From an uncultured Candidatus Nemicrothrix sp. (GTDB taxonomy: Bacteria; Actinomycetota; Acidimicrobiia; Acidimicrobiales; Acidimicrobilacustridaceae): a stretch of 38,466 nucleotides of DNA. Location: the NCBI GenBank assembly GCA_903867185.1, contig CAIPQK010000130.1, positions 1 through 38,466 of the forward strand, read 5' to 3'. The translations under genes and the position numbers were made by a program. Shown here one piece after another: positions 19,241-29,959 of this stretch (positions are counted from its first letter, which is position 1; the number at the start of each line of letters is the position of its first letter). Below the pieces are notes generated by a model that was not told the origin of the DNA, searched no databases, and worked only from the letters and a program-made list of their open reading frames with translations.

Positions 19241-19455
19241 TGAAGGCCCGCAAGAGCCAGGATGCGCTCTAGGTGGGGTCGTGCCGGGATGCCGAGTTGA
19301 ATCCTTGACCCGGGGGCCCGGGACGGGCAGGATGGCCACCGCTGATCGCTTCCTGCGATTTTGCCCCTCCGACTGCGGTGTGTGCCGCCGAATCCGAGTT
19401 GAGATCCATGGAATCTGATGAATCTGGTAACGGAGCGGATGGGGGAGACCATGGC

Positions 19456-20304
19456 GTGAAGATGCCAACCAACCTTTCTGCCGCCGAGGCTGTGGTTGAG
19501 GGGGCCCGTCCCATCTCCGCCGAACGACCACTCCCTCGAGTCATTGCGGTGGCGAATCAGAAGGGTGGCGTGGGAAAGACCACCACCTCGATCAACCTCA
19601 GTGCCTGTCTGGCAGAGCTGGGGTATCGCACCCTGGTCATCGATCTCGATCCGCAGGGCAACGCCTCCACGGGCCTGGGCGTCGACATTCGCTCGCTCGA
19701 GTCCTCAATGTATGACGTCATCCTCCACGACGTTCCCCTCGAGGACTGCATCGAAGGCACCGTGGTCCGCAACCTCTTTGTGGCCCCAGCCAGCCTCGAT
19801 CTGGCAGGTGCAGAGATCGAACTCGTGCCGGCCTTCAGCCGCGAGATGCGCCTGAAGATGGCGATCGATTCAGTAAAGGACGATTACGACTTTGTTCTGA
19901 TCGACTGTCCCCCATCGCTTGGCCTGCTGACGGTGAATGCCATGGCGGCGGCGACCGAAGTTCTGGTGCCCATTCAGTGTGAGTACTTCGCACTCGAGGG
20001 CCTCACCCAACTCACGAAGAACGTGGCGCTTATTCAGAAGAGCCTGAACCCGGCCCTGGAGATCAGCGCCATCGTTCTGGTTATGTATGCCCGCACCAAC
20101 CTGTCTGACGGGGTCGTTGCTGACGTACGGGAACACTTTGGCGACAAGGTCTGCCAGGAAGTGGTTCCTCGCTCGGTGCGGCTTTCAGAGGCTCCAGGGT
20201 TCGGACAACCAATCATCACATTCGATCCAAGTAGCCGGGGGGCAACTGCCTACCGGAAGTTGGCCAAGGAGGTCAGTGGTGGCACGCCGCAGCGGACTCG
20301 GTAA
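19456..20304 (+). CDS. parA: Chromosome partitioning ATPase ParA
   Basis: This is a deviant-Walker P-loop ATPase: VIAVANQKGGVGKTTTSINL carries the KGGVGKT signature, TLVIDLDPQGNASTGLG is Walker A', and DFVLIDCPPSLG is Walker B. ParA-ATP binds DNA nonspecifically and is stimulated by ParB to move origins apart. I chose the GTG at 19456 because GGGGGAG lies eight bases upstream; an in-frame ATG at 19408 would add 16 low-complexity residues with a poorer ribosome-binding site. It precedes parB and overlaps its start by 26 bases. Two parS sites lie about 215-280 bases upstream. Confidence 0.95.
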   Translation: MKMPTNLSAAEAVVEGARPISAERPLPRVIAVANQKGGVGKTTTSINLSACLAELGYRTLVIDLDPQGNASTGLGVDIRSLESSMYDVILHDVPLEDCIEGTVVRNLFVAPASLDLAGAEIELVPAFSREMRLKMAIDSVKDDYDFVLIDCPPSLGLLTVNAMAAATEVLVPIQCEYFALEGLTQLTKNVALIQKSLNPALEISAIVLVMYARTNLSDGVVADVREHFGDKVCQEVVPRSVRLSEAPGFGQPIITFDPSSRGATAYRKLAKEVSGGTPQRTR

Positions 20305-21178
20305 AGGTCTCGGATCTCTGATCCCGACCACGGAACGACTGCAGGACAGCGATGCAATCCTGCGGGAACTCCCCATTTCAGAAATCGTGGCCAATACCTA
20401 CCAGCCACGCAGTCATTTCGATGAAGAGGCACTGGTCAGCCTTTCTGCGTCAATCCGAGCGGTGGGCGTTCTTCAGCCCATTTTGGTTCGCGAGTTAGGC
20501 GAAGACTCCTACGAACTGATCGCCGGCGAACGACGCTGGCGGGCAGCGAAGCGGGCTGGGCTTCAGACCATTCCGGCCATCGTGCGCACGGCCGAAGACG
20601 AAGGTTCGCTCGAACAGGCCCTGGTCGAGAACCTTCACCGAGAAGACCTCGGTGCTCTCGAGGAAGCTGCCGCCTATCAGCAGCTCGTTGAAGAGTTCAA
20701 GCTCACGCAGGATCAGGTTGCGACCCGGGTCGGCAAGAGCCGTTCCTCGATCGCCAACACCATGCGGCTTCTCCAGCTTCCAACCAGCATTCAGCGTCTG
20801 TTGGGCGAGGGTCAGTTATCGGCCGGCCATGCCCGGGCCCTTCTCGGAACCCCCGACCGGGCCTTCCAGGAGAAGTTGGCCAAGGCCATCGTCTCGGAGA
20901 AACTCACTGTGCGCGAGGTCGAGGACCGAGTTCGCGAACACGGCGGAACTCCTGAACCTGAAGAGGCCACGGGTACCACCGGCGGGACCAAACCACTGCC
21001 CGTGGTGCGGGCCGCGCCGCTTCTTGAACTCGAGGAGATGCTGTCCGAGCATCTCGATACGCGGGTTGCGGTCTCGATGGGTCAACGCAAGGGACGCATC
21101 GTGATCGACTTCTCCACCCTCGAAGACCTCGAGCGCGTGTACCGAGTAATTGTGGATGGCAAAGAGCCGACGGACTGA
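20279..21178 (+). CDS. parB: Chromosome partitioning protein ParB
   Basis: From the GTG at 20279 the protein has 299 residues and starts ARRSGLGKGLGSLIP after the initiator, the common ParB opening that can stimulate ParA. It has the ParB/Srx CTPase motifs GERRWRAAKRAG and ENLHREDLGALEEA, a helix-turn-helix (TQDQVATRVGKSRSSIANTM) and a C-terminal dimerisation domain. AAGGAGG ends six bases before this start; a GTG at 20276 is an alternative. It binds parS and spreads as a CTP-dependent clamp. The gene overlaps parA by 26 bases. Confidence 0.96.
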   Translation: MARRSGLGKGLGSLIPTTERLQDSDAILRELPISEIVANTYQPRSHFDEEALVSLSASIRAVGVLQPILVRELGEDSYELIAGERRWRAAKRAGLQTIPAIVRTAEDEGSLEQALVENLHREDLGALEEAAAYQQLVEEFKLTQDQVATRVGKSRSSIANTMRLLQLPTSIQRLLGEGQLSAGHARALLGTPDRAFQEKLAKAIVSEKLTVREVEDRVREHGGTPEPEEATGTTGGTKPLPVVRAAPLLELEEMLSEHLDTRVAVSMGQRKGRIVIDFSTLEDLERVYRVIVDGKEPTD

Positions 21179-21892: not shown

Positions 21893-22852
21893 TCAATGGT
21901 GGGTGGCTTCGAGCCATCGCTCACAATCGATTGCCGCCATGCACCCTGAGCCAGCAGCGGTAATGGCCTGGCGATAGACGTGATCTTGGACATCGCCGCA
22001 GGCAAACACGCCTTCGATGTTGGTGAGCGACCCGTTATGGGTCACGAGGTAACCGTTCTCGTCGGTGGTGAGCTGACCGGCGAACAGATCGGTGTTGGGA
22101 CGGTGGCCAATGGCGACGAATACTCCCGTGACGGCAAGAGGTCGCTCTTCGCCGGTCACAGTGTCGGTGAGGGTGACTCCTTCAACAGTTTGATCACCCT
22201 GAATGGCGGTCACTGTTGAGTTCCACGCGAAACGTATTTTCTCGTTGGCGAACAATCGGTCTTGCATGATCTTTGATGCGCGAAGTTCTTCACGACGGTG
22301 AACAAGTGTGACGGTCTTGGCAAATTTCGTAAGAAAAAGCGCTTCTTCTATGGCGGAATCGCCACCACCAACGACAGCGATGTCGTGATCGCGGAAGAAG
22401 AAACCGTCGCAGGTCGCACAGGTTGAAAGACCGTGACCAAGCAAACGCGTTTCTTCTTCGAGTCCGAGCATGAGAGAACGCGCACCGGTGGAAACGATGA
22501 TGGAGTTGGCAATATGCGTGGGTTCGGGAGCGTCAACATCGCCGATCCACACTTTGAACGGGCGAACGGACAGATCAACTTTGGTGACCTTGCGAGTGAT
22601 GATCTCGGTGCCGAAACGTGTTGCCTGTTCGCGGAATTTCATCATGAGTTCGGGCCCCATGATTCCGTCGGGCCAACCAGGAAAGTTTTCAACCTCGGTG
22701 GTGAGCATGAGTTGTCCACCGGGCTGGTCGCTCGTTGAGGAAGGCTCACCCTCGATGAGCAGCGGCTCAAGGTTTGCTCGAGCGGTGTAGATCGCGCTCG
22801 TGAGTCCCGCGGGACCGGAACCGATGATGATGACATTGCGAACTTCAGGCAC
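21893..22852 (-). CDS. trxB: Thioredoxin reductase
   Basis: The 319-residue flavoprotein has the FAD-binding GSGPAGLTSAIYTARA near the N-terminus, the redox-active CATC disulfide in STCATCDGFFF (about residue 140), the NADPH-binding AVVGGGDSAIEEALFL and the C-terminal FAD motif VFACGDVQDH. It passes electrons from NADPH to thioredoxin. The start is GTG at 22852, with GGAG about five bases upstream. The trxB-trxA pair next to parB matches other actinobacteria. Confidence 0.97.
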   Translation of the reverse strand: MPEVRNVIIIGSGPAGLTSAIYTARANLEPLLIEGEPSSTSDQPGGQLMLTTEVENFPGWPDGIMGPELMMKFREQATRFGTEIITRKVTKVDLSVRPFKVWIGDVDAPEPTHIANSIIVSTGARSLMLGLEEETRLLGHGLSTCATCDGFFFRDHDIAVVGGGDSAIEEALFLTKFAKTVTLVHRREELRASKIMQDRLFANEKIRFAWNSTVTAIQGDQTVEGVTLTDTVTGEERPLAVTGVFVAIGHRPNTDLFAGQLTTDENGYLVTHNGSLTNIEGVFACGDVQDHVYRQAITAAGSGCMAAIDCERWLEATHH

Positions 22853-22923: not shown

Positions 22924-23337
22924 TTAACGCTTGGAGGATGCCCCCGCTGAAGGGGCAGGTGCATTGCGACGGAGGAACAACAGCGCCCCGACCGAAGTGA
23001 ACAGCACGCCGAGGATGAGATACGGCAGCCATACTCCCGAGGGAAGGGCTTCATCGAGGAGGCGAACCACCCCGATAACCATCAAGACCGCGATGACGAC
23101 GATGATCGTGCCGGCAAAAACGCCGAAGACCAGCCCGCGGGCGATCTTCATGATGGGCGTGGTGGTGCGATCTCGAACGGTCTCGACGGCGTTCACGATG
23201 GCGTCGGCGGCCTGCGCTGGCCAGTCGCCGCCAGCGAGTGATCCGACTGATGGAATCGATGGGATGGGGCGCGGCGGGGTCGACGATGATTCCTGTTTCG
23301 AACCGGAGGAAGTCGAAGCGTTCGGGCCCGTATCCAT
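22924..23337 (-). CDS. Small membrane protein with Ser/Pro-rich N-terminus, function unknown
   Basis: The 137-residue protein has a polar Ser/Pro-rich N-terminal third, an amphipathic stretch (PAQAADAIVNAVETVRDRTT), two transmembrane helices (roughly residues 70-92 and 103-122) and a short basic tail. I do not recognise the family. It lies between trxB and the kinase gene on the same strand. TAGGAT lies seven bases before the ATG with no Shine-Dalgarno sequence, so it is probably leaderless with its own promoter. A membrane partner for the neighbouring kinase is possible but is only a guess from position. Confidence 0.65.
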   Translation of the reverse strand: MDTGPNASTSSGSKQESSSTPPRPIPSIPSVGSLAGGDWPAQAADAIVNAVETVRDRTTTPIMKIARGLVFGVFAGTIIVVIAVLMVIGVVRLLDEALPSGVWLPYLILGVLFTSVGALLFLRRNAPAPSAGASSKR

Positions 23338-23367: not shown

Positions 23368-24870
23368 TTAGGAGGTGACGATGATGTCGGTGATTGTCAC
23401 CTGAAAGGGCGGTGTCTCTTTGAGTTGCGTAATCCAGAGCAAGACAGCGTTGCCACTGGCACCGTGGAGGTCGAGAGTGAGCGGACCCCGGATGTTCGTC
23501 GCGCTGGCACGCACCGTCCCCCAGCCAATGATGGTCGTCGGTGAACCGGTAGCGACATACGCCTCGAGTGACCATCCCGACGAAGGCGAATCAATCGTGA
23601 TGCTCCCCACGGGTCCTTCGGTCGCAAGATCGATGACGAGGCCGACACCTGATTTGAGATTGCCGAACTGGCGCGTCGAGTACACCTCGGTCGACCAGGA
23701 GGTCAGCGAATCGGCATCGACAGCGTTCATAGCGGACGGTTCGTTTTCGAAACCAGTTCGATCGACGGGATCGAAGGAGTGCGCAGTGGAAATGGCGAGT
23801 TGCCTCGGTGCCGTGGTGGTCGTTGCTGGTTGACTCGAAAAGAGAGTCTTTCCGGCATCGGTGTTGGCAATAAGAACCGCAATCAGAAGAAGCACCGCCA
23901 CGACAACGAGTGTCACAACGATTCCTGATCGTCCGCGCCTTACGCGGATGGGAGCGGGGGTTGGTGTGGTCGGTTTTGTCTCACTGGCGGGATCAGCAAG
24001 GACGTCGAGACGAGTCGAAAGCAACGCGGCACGCATGTCGTTGGCTGAAGCAAAGCGATCACTTGGCGCGCGAGACATTGCCCGCATGATCGTGGTTTCG
24101 AGATCTTGTGGAATTTCATTCAGAACCACCGACGGACGTGATGGATCTCGATGCATGCGCGCAAGCGCGAGGGCCGCTGGCGTATCGGCGCGGAACGGCG
24201 CTTCGCCACAGACGGCTTCGTAGAGGACGGCGCCTAACGCGTAGAGGTCGGTGCGCCCATCGACGGGACCGCCCTCAACTTGTTCTGGAGCGAGGTATTT
24301 CACCGTTCCCAGCACCTGTGCGGTGCGCGTGAGGTCGGGTTCATCGAGCACTTTGGCGATTCCAAAGTCCGTTACGAGCACTCGACCATCGTCAGAAAGA
24401 AGAATGTTTGCCGGTTTGATGTCGCGATGTATCACGCCAGCGCGGTGAGCAACCGCAAGGGCACCGACTACCTGAGCACCGATATGCACGACCTCGATCG
24501 GATCGAGAGCGCCGCGTTCGTCGAGAAAGTCTCGAAGCGTGCGACCACGTACAAGTTCCATAACAATTGCATCGCAACCGTCGAGGTCGACAGTGTCATA
24601 AATAGCAACAATCGACGGATCAACGAGTCGTGCCGCGGCGATTGCTTCGATGTGGAATCGCTGGCGAACAACCGGGTCGTTGGCAAACTGAGGATGAAGA
24701 ATTTTGATTGCGACAGCGCGACCAAGAATCAGATCGTCCGCTTCCCAGACTTCGGCCATGCCACCGACAGCAATTGGTTGACGAAGTTCGTAGCGTTGCG
24801 CGAGGACACGACCGACGAGTTCGCGGCTAGGAACTGAAGGGGGCACTGACCCCGGATCGTCCGCGTTCAC
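23368..24870 (-). CDS. Ser/Thr protein kinase with transmembrane helix and MviN-type extracytoplasmic domain
   Basis: The kinase domain is PknB-like and looks catalytically complete: glycine loop AVGGMAEVWEADD, lysine in AVAIKIL (codon 24703-24705), HRDIKPANILL with the catalytic Asp (24421-24423), DFG (Asp codon 24367-24369), and YLAPEQ. A cytoplasmic linker precedes one transmembrane helix (VTLVVVAVLLLIAVLIA) and an outside domain of about 150 residues with SWSTEVYST, GNLKSGVGLVIDL and SITIDSPSSGW. That part resembles the C-terminal discoidin-like domain of mycobacterial MviN (Rv3910), where it follows a pseudokinase fused to the MurJ flippase. No MurJ domain occurs here. The start is uncertain: the frame is open to an ATG at 24981, but that overlaps degV by 89 bases; GTG at 24870 or 24846 is more likely. 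Confidence 0.85.
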   Translation of the reverse strand: MNADDPGSVPPSVPSRELVGRVLAQRYELRQPIAVGGMAEVWEADDLILGRAVAIKILHPQFANDPVVRQRFHIEAIAAARLVDPSIVAIYDTVDLDGCDAIVMELVRGRTLRDFLDERGALDPIEVVHIGAQVVGALAVAHRAGVIHRDIKPANILLSDDGRVLVTDFGIAKVLDEPDLTRTAQVLGTVKYLAPEQVEGGPVDGRTDLYALGAVLYEAVCGEAPFRADTPAALALARMHRDPSRPSVVLNEIPQDLETTIMRAMSRAPSDRFASANDMRAALLSTRLDVLADPASETKPTTPTPAPIRVRRGRSGIVVTLVVVAVLLLIAVLIANTDAGKTLFSSQPATTTTAPRQLAISTAHSFDPVDRTGFENEPSAMNAVDADSLTSWSTEVYSTRQFGNLKSGVGLVIDLATEGPVGSITIDSPSSGWSLEAYVATGSPTTIIGWGTVRASATNIRGPLTLDLHGASGNAVLLWITQLKETPPFQVTITDIIVTS

Positions 24871-24892
24871 GCGGTAGAGGAATGACGGATGA

Positions 24893-25732
24893 TCACGGCC
24901 GCAGGTAGCACATGCCGATGACGCCAGGCCCACCGTGTGTGCCAATGACCGCGCCGATTTTTCCAAGACGCACCTGATCACGCGGGTAGCGCTCAGCGAT
25001 CATGTCAAGGAAGAGGTCGATATCTGGAGCTTCGCCATGAAGGATCGAGAGTTTTTCGACGGTTCCTTCGGCAAAGAGTTGGTCTCGCGCCCATTCCAGC
25101 GCGCGTTTGCGGGTTCGTTGTTTGCCAGCTTCTTCAACGGCACCGTCAACAATTCGAATAATTGGTTTCACCGACAACATGGAACCTAAGAGTGCTTTGG
25201 CGCTCCCGATTCGGCCACCCTTTTTAAGATTCTCGAGCGTGTCGAGCACCCCATAAATTTCGGTACGCGCAATCATCGATTCAACGAGGGCGACAATCGC
25301 GTCAGCGTCAGCGCCATTTCGCGCGGCGAGTGCAGCCTCGAGCACCATCGTGCCCAGACCACCTGTAAGCGATCGACTGTCGATGACACGCACATCGATA
25401 TCGCCATCGACTGCGGTCGCAGCATTGCGTGCAGATTGCACCGTTGCAGAAAGTTCACCGGAAAGATTGATGCACACCACTGCGCTTGCACCAACTGCTG
25501 CTGCACCTCGAAAGGCCTGTTCAAACCGGCCAGGTGAAGGAGCCGAGGTTTCGGGCAGCAGTCCGGTGCTGGCCATCTTTGCGTAGAAGTCTTCGACGCT
25601 GAGTTCCTCGCGGTCGATGTATTCATCGTTGCCAAAACGGATGTTTAACGGCACAACGCCGATGCTGTTGGTGGTGGTTTCCGCTTCGCTCAAGTCGCAG
25701 GAACTATCGGTGACGATGTGGACGCCGGTCAT
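24893..25732 (-). CDS. DegV family fatty-acid-binding protein
   Basis: The 279-residue protein has the DegV opening VHIVTDSSCDLS, the conserved TSAPSPGRFEQAF, INLSGELSATVQSA and VIDSRSLTGGLG motifs, and LENLKKGGRIG with the C-terminal THGGPGVIG. Family members bind fatty acids and, in Firmicutes, act as FakB with the kinase FakA. No fakA is seen here, so its partner is unknown. It sits between the DUF6049 and kinase genes, 36 bases after the former. Confidence 0.93.
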   Translation of the reverse strand: MTGVHIVTDSSCDLSEAETTTNSIGVVPLNIRFGNDEYIDREELSVEDFYAKMASTGLLPETSAPSPGRFEQAFRGAAAVGASAVVCINLSGELSATVQSARNAATAVDGDIDVRVIDSRSLTGGLGTMVLEAALAARNGADADAIVALVESMIARTEIYGVLDTLENLKKGGRIGSAKALLGSMLSVKPIIRIVDGAVEEAGKQRTRKRALEWARDQLFAEGTVEKLSILHGEAPDIDLFLDMIAERYPRDQVRLGKIGAVIGTHGGPGVIGMCYLRP

Positions 25733-25768: not shown

Positions 25769-27760
25769 TCATCCACCTGGCGTTTGTGATGGTTCGTTCG
25801 CGGCGACCAAGGAGCGAGCCCGACGACGATGGCGGATGTGTCGGCCCCACCACACCAGTAAGAACAAGCCGGCTCCGAGGGAAAGGAAGAGTCCAACCCC
25901 CGAAATCGCTGTGGATCGAACGTCGATCCGGCTCGATGCGACGAGTACTCCTCCACCCGATGAGGTGATGGCGACATCGAGGGGGAACGCGCCGGAAGCC
26001 CTCGTCGTGACCTCGATATCGGTGCGAGTGGTACTCGAGGGGGCGAGAACGATTTCATAGGTGGTCCCGCTCGGAAATTCGAGTTTTGGGCTACTCACGT
26101 TGATCCGAACCAACGCTTCAACCGGAAGATCGTTAGTAATCACCAGCGGGATTTTTCCGCTTCTGGAAGTCAGGGTGACTTTTTGTGATTTCGGAAGGCT
26201 GATCGCCGAGGTAATCGCGAGAAGTTGATTGTTGGCGGCATCGAGCACCGAGGTTCGATCGTTTGTCGTCAGAGTTGCTTCAGCGGAGGCCAGAACCGTT
26301 GCTTCAACGGGGTCCACGATTTCGCCGCCCTTGGGGAGCATGGCGCGCAGTCCAAGCAGGTTCCACCGTGCCTGTTCGAGCCGTGCTCCGTAGGTACCAA
26401 GATCGGTTGGATCGTTACTTGTCCAGGAGCGCACGAGAGGTTTTTGGGTAGTTCCGGCAACACCAGTGCGAGTGAAGAGGTCATCAAGGGTGAGCGGCTG
26501 GAGAACCATGTTCCCCGCGGAGCCACTTTGGTTGCCCGTAGTTGCTGTCAACCCCGCGAGGAATTCTTTCAGCGCGGCGGTGTCGGTTGCGGCGGGAATT
26601 GTCAGAGCAATACCTCGGTCAGCACCGAGCTGTTCTTGGTGGAGCATCATCAACTCAGCCAGCGCTTGATGCGCACCGAGAATGGGATCGGTCGTCAGAA
26701 GGAAACGTGAAGAAGCGGCGTCATCATTGGCCATGGCCGAGAACGATGTTCCATTTTCACTCTCGACGAGGAAACGCTTGGTCAGCACCGAACTTTCATC
26801 CGACACCAATGAGGATCGAATTTGGGATGACTGGAGCACAACGGACCGCGTCCCTGATTGCGCGAGCAGATTGAGCGCGCTTGGAGTCACCGACGGATCA
26901 AGGACCAACGTTCGGCGGTCGGGGGCAGCTTCGAAGACGTTGGCGAGGATGCTGTCGCCGGTGGCGTATTCAGCGTTGAGGACCGAACTTTGGCCGGCAG
27001 AGATGAGTGAACCCGCATCGATCGTGACATAGGGACGACTCAGGGTTTGGCGGGCCTGCCTGTCGGGACGGGGTGAAGTGTCACCGGCTTCTGTTAACGC
27101 TTGAACAAGGAAGGGCGTTGCCGCGAGTGTCAGCGGCGTGCTTGCAGCTGCAGCAATGATGCGAAATTGCTCGCCGGCTCGACTGAGTTGTGCGTCGGAA
27201 AGTTGCGGAGCACCCTCGCGGCTCACGCCGAGTGGTGCATCGATCACAACCGTTGTCGCCACCGCCAGCGGCGTTGTGGGGGTTGTTGGTGTTGGAAGAC
27301 GCAAGAGATGTGTGACGATGCTGTCGAGGCGTGTTCCATTCGCCGCGGTGGCTTCGATGAGAACCGGGTACACGCCCGACTCGCTCAGAACGGTTCCGCC
27401 CTCGGGAGCGGGCCACTTTTCGTTCAGTGGAAGTGAGAGAGTTTTTGTTGAACGGGAGGCATCAAGAATGGTGGCGGGTGTGGAAAAAAGTGCACTTCCG
27501 AGTTGTTCGCCCGCAATGGTGCGATCAAGACGGCTTCGACTTGTGACTGCGCTGTAGAGAACAAGTTCAATTTTTGTGTTTGCGGGAAGGTCTCCGGTCG
27601 AAACCTCGGCGGTGAAGACGCCATTGGGTCCAACAAACGCTGTTTGGTGTGCGAGTTTCAGTTGGTGTGTGGCGGTCTGGGTGGTTTGTGCGTTTGCAAG
27701 GATCGGACACAGAACAAAGAGGAAAGCAGCGACGACGCCGACGCGCAGGATGCGACTCAT
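25769..27760 (-). CDS. DUF6049 family exported envelope protein
   Basis: The 663-residue protein has a signal peptide (GVVAAFLFVLCPILANAQ), a large extracytoplasmic region with beta-rich parts at both ends, and one C-terminal transmembrane helix (GVGLFLSLGAGLFLLVWW) followed by an Arg-rich cytoplasmic tail. Size, topology and position next to the cca gene match the actinobacterial DUF6049 family (Rv3909-like), normally found right beside mviN/murJ. No function is assigned; an envelope role is inferred from the neighbours. Its start overlaps the stop of the GNAT gene as ATGA. The gene that usually follows, mviN, is replaced by degV and the kinase. Confidence 0.8.
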   Translation of the reverse strand: MSRILRVGVVAAFLFVLCPILANAQTTQTATHQLKLAHQTAFVGPNGVFTAEVSTGDLPANTKIELVLYSAVTSRSRLDRTIAGEQLGSALFSTPATILDASRSTKTLSLPLNEKWPAPEGGTVLSESGVYPVLIEATAANGTRLDSIVTHLLRLPTPTTPTTPLAVATTVVIDAPLGVSREGAPQLSDAQLSRAGEQFRIIAAAASTPLTLAATPFLVQALTEAGDTSPRPDRQARQTLSRPYVTIDAGSLISAGQSSVLNAEYATGDSILANVFEAAPDRRTLVLDPSVTPSALNLLAQSGTRSVVLQSSQIRSSLVSDESSVLTKRFLVESENGTSFSAMANDDAASSRFLLTTDPILGAHQALAELMMLHQEQLGADRGIALTIPAATDTAALKEFLAGLTATTGNQSGSAGNMVLQPLTLDDLFTRTGVAGTTQKPLVRSWTSNDPTDLGTYGARLEQARWNLLGLRAMLPKGGEIVDPVEATVLASAEATLTTNDRTSVLDAANNQLLAITSAISLPKSQKVTLTSRSGKIPLVITNDLPVEALVRINVSSPKLEFPSGTTYEIVLAPSSTTRTDIEVTTRASGAFPLDVAITSSGGGVLVASSRIDVRSTAISGVGLFLSLGAGLFLLVWWGRHIRHRRRARSLVAANEPSQTPGG

Positions 27761-28479
27761 TTGTCGAGACTTTCCGAAATGTTCAACGTAAGCACGGCCA
27801 GACCGGTTGGTTCATCGGAAAAGCCGAGATGGCGGTACAACGCGAGCGCGCGTTGGTTGATCTCTTGCGTGTTCACCAACACCGATGCACAGCCGCGCCG
27901 ACGACACCACTGAAGTGCATCGCCGATCAATGCAGTCCCGATTCCGTTGCCGTGGAACTCCGGGTGCACGGCAAGTCGCTGCAGGTAGCCAAAACGGCGG
28001 GCGACGCCGGCGATGTGGTAGCCGACAACACGGTCCCCGATGCAGGCGACGCGAAATCGTGATTTTGGTGTGGCGTGGCGGGCATCGAGGAGGCCGTTGA
28101 GGTCGAACCGCCAGAAACTGTCGAATGCCAGGCCGTCGAGGTCAAGGACAGCTCTGACATCGCGAGCCCGTCCGCGGCGCAACTGTGTCGAAGGAGCGCT
28201 CGTACCGGGAAGAGCGAACAGGTCGTGGCGCAGGAGGTGAAGCCGCTCATGCACAGAAAAGCCGTGATCAAGAAAGACGGGTTGCTCGGTGAAGGTCAGG
28301 GCCGGAGTGAGGACCGCCCGATAACCAGCATCGGTGACCGAAGAGAGCGCTCGGTTGAGTGCGTCAGGCGAAGGGGGAGAACCCGGGGTCGGACTGAGCA
28401 GGGCTAGCGCAGGGTCGCCCCGCCAAGGGCCGATCCGCATGCGGTCGGCATGCCCGGTGATGGTGTCAGTGCGTCGCAT
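27757..28479 (-). CDS. GNAT family N-acetyltransferase
   Basis: The 240-residue protein ends in a GNAT domain: VVGYHIAGVARRFGYLQRLA, then HPEFHGNGIGTALIGDAL (the acetyl-CoA pyrophosphate loop), and NQRALALYRHLGFS. The N-terminal 90 residues are less conserved. The substrate cannot be read; RimI-like protein acetylation is one possibility. It overlaps the DUF6049 gene by four bases, so the two are coupled. TAGGCT lies 12 bases before the ATG and could give a very short leader. It takes the position where a NUDIX gene lies in mycobacteria. It is divergent from cca across 94 bases. Confidence 0.85.
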   Translation of the reverse strand: MRRTDTITGHADRMRIGPWRGDPALALLSPTPGSPPSPDALNRALSSVTDAGYRAVLTPALTFTEQPVFLDHGFSVHERLHLLRHDLFALPGTSAPSTQLRRGRARDVRAVLDLDGLAFDSFWRFDLNGLLDARHATPKSRFRVACIGDRVVGYHIAGVARRFGYLQRLAVHPEFHGNGIGTALIGDALQWCRRRGCASVLVNTQEINQRALALYRHLGFSDEPTGLAVLTLNISESLDK

Positions 28480-28573: not shown

Positions 28574-29959
28574 GTGATTCCCGATCGCCTTCGCCCGGTG
28601 CTTGAACGAACGGCCCCACTGGCTGAGCGGTTCGCCGCGTCGGGATACAAGCTCTATTTGGTCGGTGGTGTTGTCCGCGACCTCCTTCTCGGCCGCGACA
28701 TGTCTGATGGTCGAGATATTGATCTGACCACCGATGCTCTGCCGGCGGAAACCAAACGGCTTGTCAAGGGCTGGGCCGATTCGGTGTGGACCCAGGGTGA
28801 GCGGTTCGGCACCATCGGTTGCCAGACCGATGGCTGGACCTACGAGATCACCACCCATCGAGCCGAGGCCTACGACCCTGAATCTCGCAAACCCGAGGTC
28901 GTGTTCTCCGATGTGATCGAAGCCGATTTGTCCCGACGAGATTTCACGGTGAATGCAATGGCGTTGTCGTTGCCCGATCCCGTGCTGATCGATCCGTTCG
29001 GGGGGGCTGAAGACTTGGCGGCTGGCCGCTTGCGCACACCACTCTCGCCCGAAGAATCATTCTCTGACGATCCGTTGCGCATGTTGCGCGCTGCTCGGTT
29101 CCTCGCTGGTTACGGCCTGACGCCTGACGATGAGTTGGTCGCGGCGGCAACGTCAATGTGCGAACGACTGTCGATTGTTTCTGCCGAACGTATCCGCGAC
29201 GAATTCGACAAGTTGATGGTTGTCGATGACCCGACACCCGGTTTGTGGTTCCTTGCCGACACCGGGTTGATGGATCAGTTCCTTCCCGAGTTTTCGCGTA
29301 TGCGTTTGGAGCAGGATCCAATTCATCGCCATAAAGACGTACTGACGCACACCATTGCGGTTATTGGAAAGACAAGTACGAACCGTCTCGTGCGTTTGTC
29401 AGCGCTGTATCACGACGTTGGTAAGCCACGAACCCGCGCGATCGGCGATGCGGGTGTGTCGTTTCATCATCACGAAGTTGTGGGCGCCCGCATGACACGA
29501 GAGCGCATGAAGGCGCTGAAGTACTCGACTGAAGATGTAGAAGCAGTGACTCGTTTGGTCTTCCTTCATTTGCGCTTTCACACCTACAAAATGGGTTGGA
29601 CCGATTCGGCGGTCCGTCGCTTCGTGCGCGATGCGGGTGATCTTCTTCCTGAACTGATCGAACTCACACGTTGCGACTGCACGACGCGCAACGAACGTAA
29701 AGCTCAGGAATTATCGCGGCGCATGGATGAACTCGAAGTGCGTATCGATGAATTGCTGGCACGGGAAGAACTCGCGTCACTACGACCGGACCTCGATGGC
29801 AACACCGTTATGGCGCACCTTGGTCTCACCCCGGGTCGCGATGTTGGCGACGCGCTTGATTTCCTCATGGAACTTCGTTTGGAAGAAGGCCCGTTAGGCG
29901 AAGACGAAGCGAAGAAACGCCTTGATGCCTGGTGGGCGGCACGCATGACCGGCGTCTAG
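28574..29959 (+). CDS. cca: CCA tRNA nucleotidyltransferase with HD domain
   Basis: The 461-residue protein has the class II nucleotidyltransferase head: YLVGGVVRDLLLG and RDIDLTTDA with the two metal-binding aspartates (48 and 50), then SRRDFTVNAMAL, and the template-like motif DPLRMLRAARF. An HD domain follows (ALYHDVGKPRTR), as in actinobacterial PcnA/Cca proteins. The enzyme adds CCA to tRNA 3' ends; the tRNA-Ile gene here lacks an encoded CCA and needs it. A poly(A) polymerase role cannot be excluded from sequence. The start is GTG at 28574. Its stop lies nine bases from the 3' end of the convergent methyltransferase gene. Confidence 0.95.
   Translation: MIPDRLRPVLERTAPLAERFAASGYKLYLVGGVVRDLLLGRDMSDGRDIDLTTDALPAETKRLVKGWADSVWTQGERFGTIGCQTDGWTYEITTHRAEAYDPESRKPEVVFSDVIEADLSRRDFTVNAMALSLPDPVLIDPFGGAEDLAAGRLRTPLSPEESFSDDPLRMLRAARFLAGYGLTPDDELVAAATSMCERLSIVSAERIRDEFDKLMVVDDPTPGLWFLADTGLMDQFLPEFSRMRLEQDPIHRHKDVLTHTIAVIGKTSTNRLVRLSALYHDVGKPRTRAIGDAGVSFHHHEVVGARMTRERMKALKYSTEDVEAVTRLVFLHLRFHTYKMGWTDSAVRRFVRDAGDLLPELIELTRCDCTTRNERKAQELSRRMDELEVRIDELLAREELASLRPDLDGNTVMAHLGLTPGRDVGDALDFLMELRLEEGPLGEDEAKKRLDAWWAARMTGV

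Follow-up and report, generated by a model that had tools for sequence, protein, structure and literature searches.

A free-standing, probably active receptor kinase at the MviN-type locus of an acidimicrobial actinobacterium and its kinship to the MviN pseudokinase module

The MviN pseudokinase is among the best-studied bacterial pseudokinases and is part of mycobacterial cell-wall control, a phospho-threonine in the juxtamembrane part of its tail recruiting FhaA. In the stretch of Candidatus Nemicrothrix DNA analysed here (38,466 nucleotides, hereafter the window), the position of mviN, between the CCA tRNA nucleotidyltransferase and DUF6049 genes on one side and trxB and parB on the other, is taken by a kinase gene with intact catalytic motifs. 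This raises the question of how such a kinase relates to the MurJ-pseudokinase-outer domain fusion of mycobacteria (Rv3910 type). An earlier reading of the sequence alone had proposed that it is the same module as the C-terminal half of MviN, in a free-standing and catalytically competent form.

The window kinase has 500 residues from a likely GTG start, which was picked from its position after degV and from the conserved N-terminus in A6; the open frame itself extends back to 24981, inside degV. The sequence-only reading had treated 23368-25732 as a single gene: the kinase gene is real and the remainder is degV (Table 1). A kinase domain is followed, as that reading had described, by one membrane helix and an outside part, which has about 140 residues. 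VAIK, HRDIKPAN and DFG are all kept in the translation and the alignment, so that the beta3 Lys, the HRD Asp, the Asn and the DFG Asp of a Hanks-type Ser/Thr kinase are in place; judged by these motifs, the protein is predicted to be catalytically competent and looks like a working enzyme. The gene is more than a chance open frame because named records hold 26 loci related to the window locus and because comparison with L013 gave dN 0.128 and dS 1.58 (dS being near saturation), values consistent with purifying selection.

Table 1. Positions and supporting evidence of the kinase gene, its parts and the neighbouring genes in the window.
Feature	Position	Strand	Evidence
ParA	19378..20304	+	profile match
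ParB	20087..21178	+	profile match
thioredoxin reductase trxB, MviN-locus marker	21893..22852	-	TIGR01292 above cut-off
small holin-like membrane protein	22924..23337	-	PF07332 weak, below cut-off; position conserved
free-standing receptor Ser/Thr kinase gene	23368..24870	-	ORF, 500 aa from GTG 24870
outer CBM32/F5-8C-fold domain, homologous to MviN-type C-terminal domain	23374..23793	-	sequence profiles; fold comparison
single transmembrane helix, model residues 315-334	23866..23925	-	AlphaFold model; hydrophobic stretch of translation
kinase catalytic domain, VAIK/HRD/DFG intact	24052..24792	-	Pfam PF00069 E 1.9e-39; residues aligned
DegV family gene	24893..25732	-	Pfam; 22 bases upstream of kinase start
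DUF6049 gene, MviN-locus marker	25769..27760	-	PF19516 E 1.4e-12
GNAT acetyltransferase	27757..28479	-	profile match
CCA tRNA nucleotidyltransferase	28574..29959	+	TIGR02692 above cut-off

The gene order in the window is CCA nucleotidyltransferase, GNAT, DUF6049, degV, kinase, holin-like gene, trxB, parB, parA. We defined a MurJ-associated locus kinase as a kinase with one transmembrane helix and a CBM32-like outer domain, having murJ, degV or DUF6049 upstream or trxB downstream, and the window gene is one of these.

The strongest tie to MviN comes from the outer domain. The Pfam search of the window kinase returned no match for this part of the protein. An HMM built from 24 Acidimicrobiia rows only matched the C-terminus of each of the seven fused MviN ORFs in the set at that stage (domain E 8e-16 to 2e-23) as well as the four Streptomyces-like copies (E 5e-14 to 7e-28), and hhalign aligned the window-type outer domain with the MviN C-terminus over 138 columns (99.7%, E 5e-26). 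The identity of the fused ORFs as MviN was compared with solved structures for the row L054, whose kinase part matched PDB 3oun, 3uqc and 3otv at about E 1e-154; 3UQC is the MviN pseudokinase according to the portion of PMC12599244 drawn on here. The AlphaFold model of the window outer domain (pLDDT 87.6, pTM 0.86) has a discoidin jelly-roll (CBM32/F5-8C) fold, its best match being the chitosan-binding CBM32 4zz5 (Z 14.5, rmsd 2.4, 119 aligned), followed by 4zxe, another chitosan-binding module (Foldseek E 4.9e-6; Z 13.8), and CBM32-type domains were also matched weakly at the sequence level. Although it shares the fold of these modules, the window domain is only 14-18% identical to them and sits on a kinase rather than on a glycoside hydrolase. 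Across the phylum the outer domain was found in 138 of 296 genomes. Its tree (144 columns, 10 of 74 inner branches starred) mixed locus and non-locus copies and was left aside for the direction of change.

Thus the window kinase shares with MviN the chromosomal locus, a kinase fold placed before one membrane helix and the CBM32-like outer domain. It differs from the fusion in being a separate gene that keeps all three catalytic motifs, with murJ elsewhere in the genome (contig C165), whereas MviN has MurJ in the same polypeptide and belongs to a pseudokinase family, ActPs3, described in the relevant part of PMC12599244 as having degraded catalytic motifs. The synteny and the outer-domain match both agree with what the sequence-only reading had proposed, and we consider the two modules almost certainly homologous.

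We then examined the locus across the phylum. The regions read comprised 40 of the class Acidimicrobiia with DUF6049, 20 mostly picked for a long murJ frame, 40 picked for outer-domain matches and three read for checks. A copy was called active when the Lys, the catalytic Asp, the Asn and the DFG Asp were all kept; motif scoring covered the outer-domain matches of fetched genomes, with the kinases of L103-L128 set aside. The usual order is CCA, DUF6049, murJ, (degV), kinase, trxB, with murJ or other members absent in many loci. The 80 outer-domain ORFs divide into 26 from Acidimicrobiia and, from other groups, 14 active copies, 16 unfused pseudokinases, eight fused copies, 14 lying elsewhere in their genomes and two partial ones. 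All 26 Acidimicrobiia locus copies are catalytically intact; outside this class 14 of 38 are intact, 16 being unfused pseudokinases and eight being fused to MurJ. Active unfused copies occur in 14 Acidimicrobiia families and nine others. Among the loci read, the fusion was seen only in family f69 (the mycobacterial group, eight loci). The sequence-only reading had given the mviN position and its fusion for both mycobacteria and Streptomyces: the synteny with DUF6049 and trxB matches, but the fusion does not hold for the four loci read of f64 (Streptomyces-like, a name that we inferred), where murJ and the pseudokinase occupy two neighbouring ORFs. At the level of sequence, then, the window kinase has the same locus and the same outer domain as MviN, intact motifs and a gene of its own, and pseudokinase copies stand at this locus in other lineages.

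In 33 of the 56 unfused locus copies the flippase gene lies upstream, at most 1.3 kb away and on the same strand, and its presence varies with the group: it was found upstream of nine of the 26 active Acidimicrobiia copies (17 had none, and 23 had degV upstream), nine of the 14 active copies of other groups and 15 of the 16 unfused pseudokinases. Since 22 of 40 active locus copies have no murJ upstream, adjacency to murJ is not required. The proposal that degV occupies the place of the flippase did not stand, since eight of the nine Acidimicrobiia loci that keep murJ have degV between it and the kinase.

In the 41 class loci (40 fetched plus the window), kinases with no detected outer domain were seen in L027, where the motifs are degraded, in L031, L045 and L048, where they are intact, and in L043, where the ORFs are split. 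No kinase was found on the stretches L017, L026, L028, L038-L041, L046 and L052, nor on L044, which ends near a contig edge; L038-L041 and L052 nonetheless keep DUF6049, murJ, degV and trxB. In f59 (L064 and L138) the kinase beside murJ keeps the Lys and has HGS in place of HRD and DFS in place of DFG, and we see it as a half-decayed intermediate on the way to a pseudokinase. Two long outer-domain ORFs considered as further fusions, L197 (1116 aa) and L198 (932 aa), were rejected, as they contain no MurJ domain, and the long frame of L199 gave no match with any of the eight models run.

Kinase-domain placement was less conclusive. The tree had 93 rows, 22 of them other Ser/Thr kinases (STKs; 20 distinct); L149, L132 and L014 were dropped, L035, L037, L033, L055, L062 and L150 were thinned, and L079, L081, L086, L087, L094, L096 and L102 were dropped from the outgroup. 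One branch (SH-aLRT 87) separated the other STKs and ten non-locus copies from a side holding every locus kinase, the fused domains and four non-locus copies from f55 and f84. Both groups forced among the other STKs were picked after the tree had been seen: this placement was rejected for the window-family kinases (AU p 0.012) but not for the fused MviN kinase domains (AU p 0.234), so that the kinase tree gave a mixed answer on the sequence-only reading. HMM scores gave the same picture, 13 of 14 unfused locus pseudokinases fitting the locus-kinase HMM best and six of seven fused MviN domains scoring no worse with the HMM of the other STKs. With hhalign and equal-sized sets the fused domains tied (mean 129.0 for other STKs vs 127.3 for locus kinases); they reached 156.4 against the full other-STK set and, somewhat better, 165.6 against the unfused pseudokinases of related families, a difference that shared decay could cause. 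The fused MviN domain thus appears too decayed to be placed by its kinase sequence alone, and we rested orthology on the locus and the outer domain.

As a stand-in for the organism tree we used a midpoint-rooted TrxB tree of 57 loci, which leaves out seven loci with no trxB on their stretch as well as L132 and L149; the pseudokinases of f53 and f56, whose stretches carry no trxB, are absent from it. Seventeen inactive rows, including all eight fused ones, form one clade (98*). The best tree shows five changes between the active and inactive states, and the starred branches alone force two. On the simplest reading, the loss of activity preceded fusion and took place once in the ancestor of the 17-row clade, with separate losses in f52, f59, f82 and one of the two f70 loci. 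Given the midpoint root, we infer rather than observe the direction of change: the active unfused state would be ancestral, catalysis would have been lost more than once and the MurJ fusion would have come later in one lineage. An ancestral active, unfused state, which the sequence-only reading had suggested, is very likely on this distribution and tree. The murJ gene was adjacent in 21 of 22 inactive rows vs 14 of 35 active ones (fused rows counted as adjacent); these amount to at most five independent pairs, so we make no statistical claim.

Searching the whole genome with the MurJ profile gave no match on the window contig (C130), a strong match on C165 and a second, on C82, that stayed below the cut-off, in line with the earlier expectation that the window has no flippase gene and that one might be encoded elsewhere. 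The C165 murJ is a separate gene of 560 aa, flanked by an amino-acid kinase/PUA gene and an aldehyde-dehydrogenase-family gene (here named proB and proA), with murJ on the opposite strand. Within the 1.5 kb of flank examined, murJ had matches to both flanks in L171, L172 and L174, to only one in L173, L175 and L169, and to neither in L170 (same family, f1), L176 and L177. This site, where murJ is flanked by proB-like and proA-like genes of the opposite orientation (L001 281-4305, L171, L172, L174), is seen in the window's genus and in one f9 genome and looks like a new home of the flippase gene, from which L170 of the same family differs.

The genome search found three Ser/Thr kinases, the other two carrying three and four PASTA repeats (Pfam). 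With such PknB/PASTA receptor kinases the window kinase shares the kinase fold, one membrane helix and an outer sensor domain, but its outer domain is CBM32-like: its Pfam search gave no PASTA match, and the PASTA kinase model NF033483 reached 364.5 bits through the kinase part only, against a curated cut-off of 450 bits. One PASTA kinase has a penicillin-binding protein as its neighbour and shares its contig with two FHA proteins (Pfam), one of them an FhaA_N+FHA protein of 219 aa. Besides the locus kinase, the genome thus has murJ, this FhaA_N+FHA protein and both PASTA kinases. As FhaA_N was found in 259 of 296 genomes, its presence does not discriminate between readings. Separately, the FhaA_N open frames are 454-590 aa long in the eight f69 genomes with fused MviN, and most of those in the remaining listed rows have 220-350 aa; the length of FhaA may track MurJ fusion.

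Taking these observations together, we think that the window kinase is probably the separate, catalytically competent form of the module that survives as the pseudokinase half of mycobacterial MviN. The gene might instead be an ordinary PknB/PknD-type receptor kinase that stands at this locus by chance and has acquired a common sugar-binding domain. Its best solved-structure relative is indeed PknB (E 1.6e-60), and the outer domain is mobile, being borne by 14 kinase ORFs away from the MviN-type locus. However, a kinase with this outer domain recurs between DUF6049 or murJ and trxB across many families, the tree test rejects a place for the window-family kinases among the other STKs, and nearly all unfused locus pseudokinases resemble the locus kinases most, which together make a chance arrival improbable. 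We give still less credit to the idea, raised in the sequence-only reading, of a fused MviN that was split again and regained catalysis. Homology itself agrees with it and nothing further does, while in the loci read the few fused copies are nested within the inactive clade of the TrxB tree and active unfused copies are spread over many families; it is implausible that Lys, Asp and Asp would have been regained in so many lines.

A more serious alternative accepts the homology and holds that the link to MurJ is gone in the window organism, the kinase sensing an envelope sugar and phosphorylating, for instance, division or cell-wall enzymes or the products of neighbouring genes. The absence of murJ from the locus in the window's family, its location elsewhere in the genome, the many active Acidimicrobiia loci with no murJ upstream and the ability of an active kinase to act at a distance all fit this alternative, which we rate as possible and somewhat doubtful; murJ beside the kinase in most unfused loci, and fused to it in f69, speaks against it. 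Fusion to MurJ in one lineage suggests that the kinase module and MurJ work together, and we put the chance that the window kinase controls MurJ or lipid II export at about even.

If the competent MviN-type module does act on the flippase, the CBM32-like domain would bind a sugar of the envelope, perhaps an amino-sugar from peptidoglycan or from its precursors, and this binding would alter how the kinase domains pair. Autophosphorylation would follow, along with phosphorylation by the kinase of a partner (FhaA, MurJ or another late peptidoglycan protein), and lipid II export would be adjusted in this way. In the window organism a single protein would both sense and phosphorylate; in mycobacteria the phosphate would be supplied by PknB, the dead kinase being kept as a docking platform. 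The relevant parts of PMC12599244 and PMC10166564 describe phosphorylation of the MviN tail by PknB, which recruits FhaA and restrains peptidoglycan synthesis; FhaA is instead argued to promote synthesis in the part of PMC11898655 that we drew on. More broadly, and tentatively, at slightly short of an even chance, an ancient receptor kinase, coupled to the lipid II flippase and bearing a sugar-binding sensor, may be common to Actinomycetota; it would have lost catalysis several times independently, nearly always beside murJ, its scaffold role outliving its enzyme role. In that case the mycobacterial MviN pseudokinase would be where a recurrent trend ended in fusion, and the window gene would show the original active state, now able to work away from murJ.

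A related gene may already have been noticed. In its S6 Fig legend, PMC10166564 lists a "protein kinase family protein" gene (gene 6) as frequent downstream of mviN orthologs lacking the extension, and its text, as far as drawn on here, restricts the extended pseudokinase to organisms that have an arabinogalactan layer. Gene 6, a kinase gene after murJ in actinobacteria with no fusion, is, judged by this description, probably of the window-kinase family; the passages on it make no link to the MviN C-terminal half, to an outer domain or to an active or dead state. The tie of the locus kinase to the MviN outer domain, its intact catalytic state and the order of loss then fusion were not found by full-text searches of open-licence PMC and appear to be new here. 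An active unfused relative makes the origin of the MviN pseudokinase testable, an origin not given in the portions of PMC12599244, PMC10166564 and PMC11898655 drawn on here. It also serves as a natural control for judging which properties the dead domain has lost and which it has retained, and the locus set includes partly decayed intermediates such as f59. Such a relative further suggests that, widely across the phylum, a sugar-sensing kinase may be linked to lipid II export.

Finally, we note three minor observations. In the mycobacterial group, L142 (7521-9653, genome G335) encodes a second kinase with intact catalytic motifs, whose outer domain is nested among the fused MviN outer domains (SH-aLRT 82) and whose kinase domain clusters with that genome's other STKs, a possible case of sensor-domain transfer. 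The loci L105 and L106 are 86-87% identical to the window outer domain and come from two records titled Bifidobacterium breve, which are probably mislabelled MAGs. In the juxtamembrane stretches, which we read by eye and which did not align with confidence, several families have a short FLRxEGR-like motif immediately ahead of the membrane helix (L064, L152 and L155).
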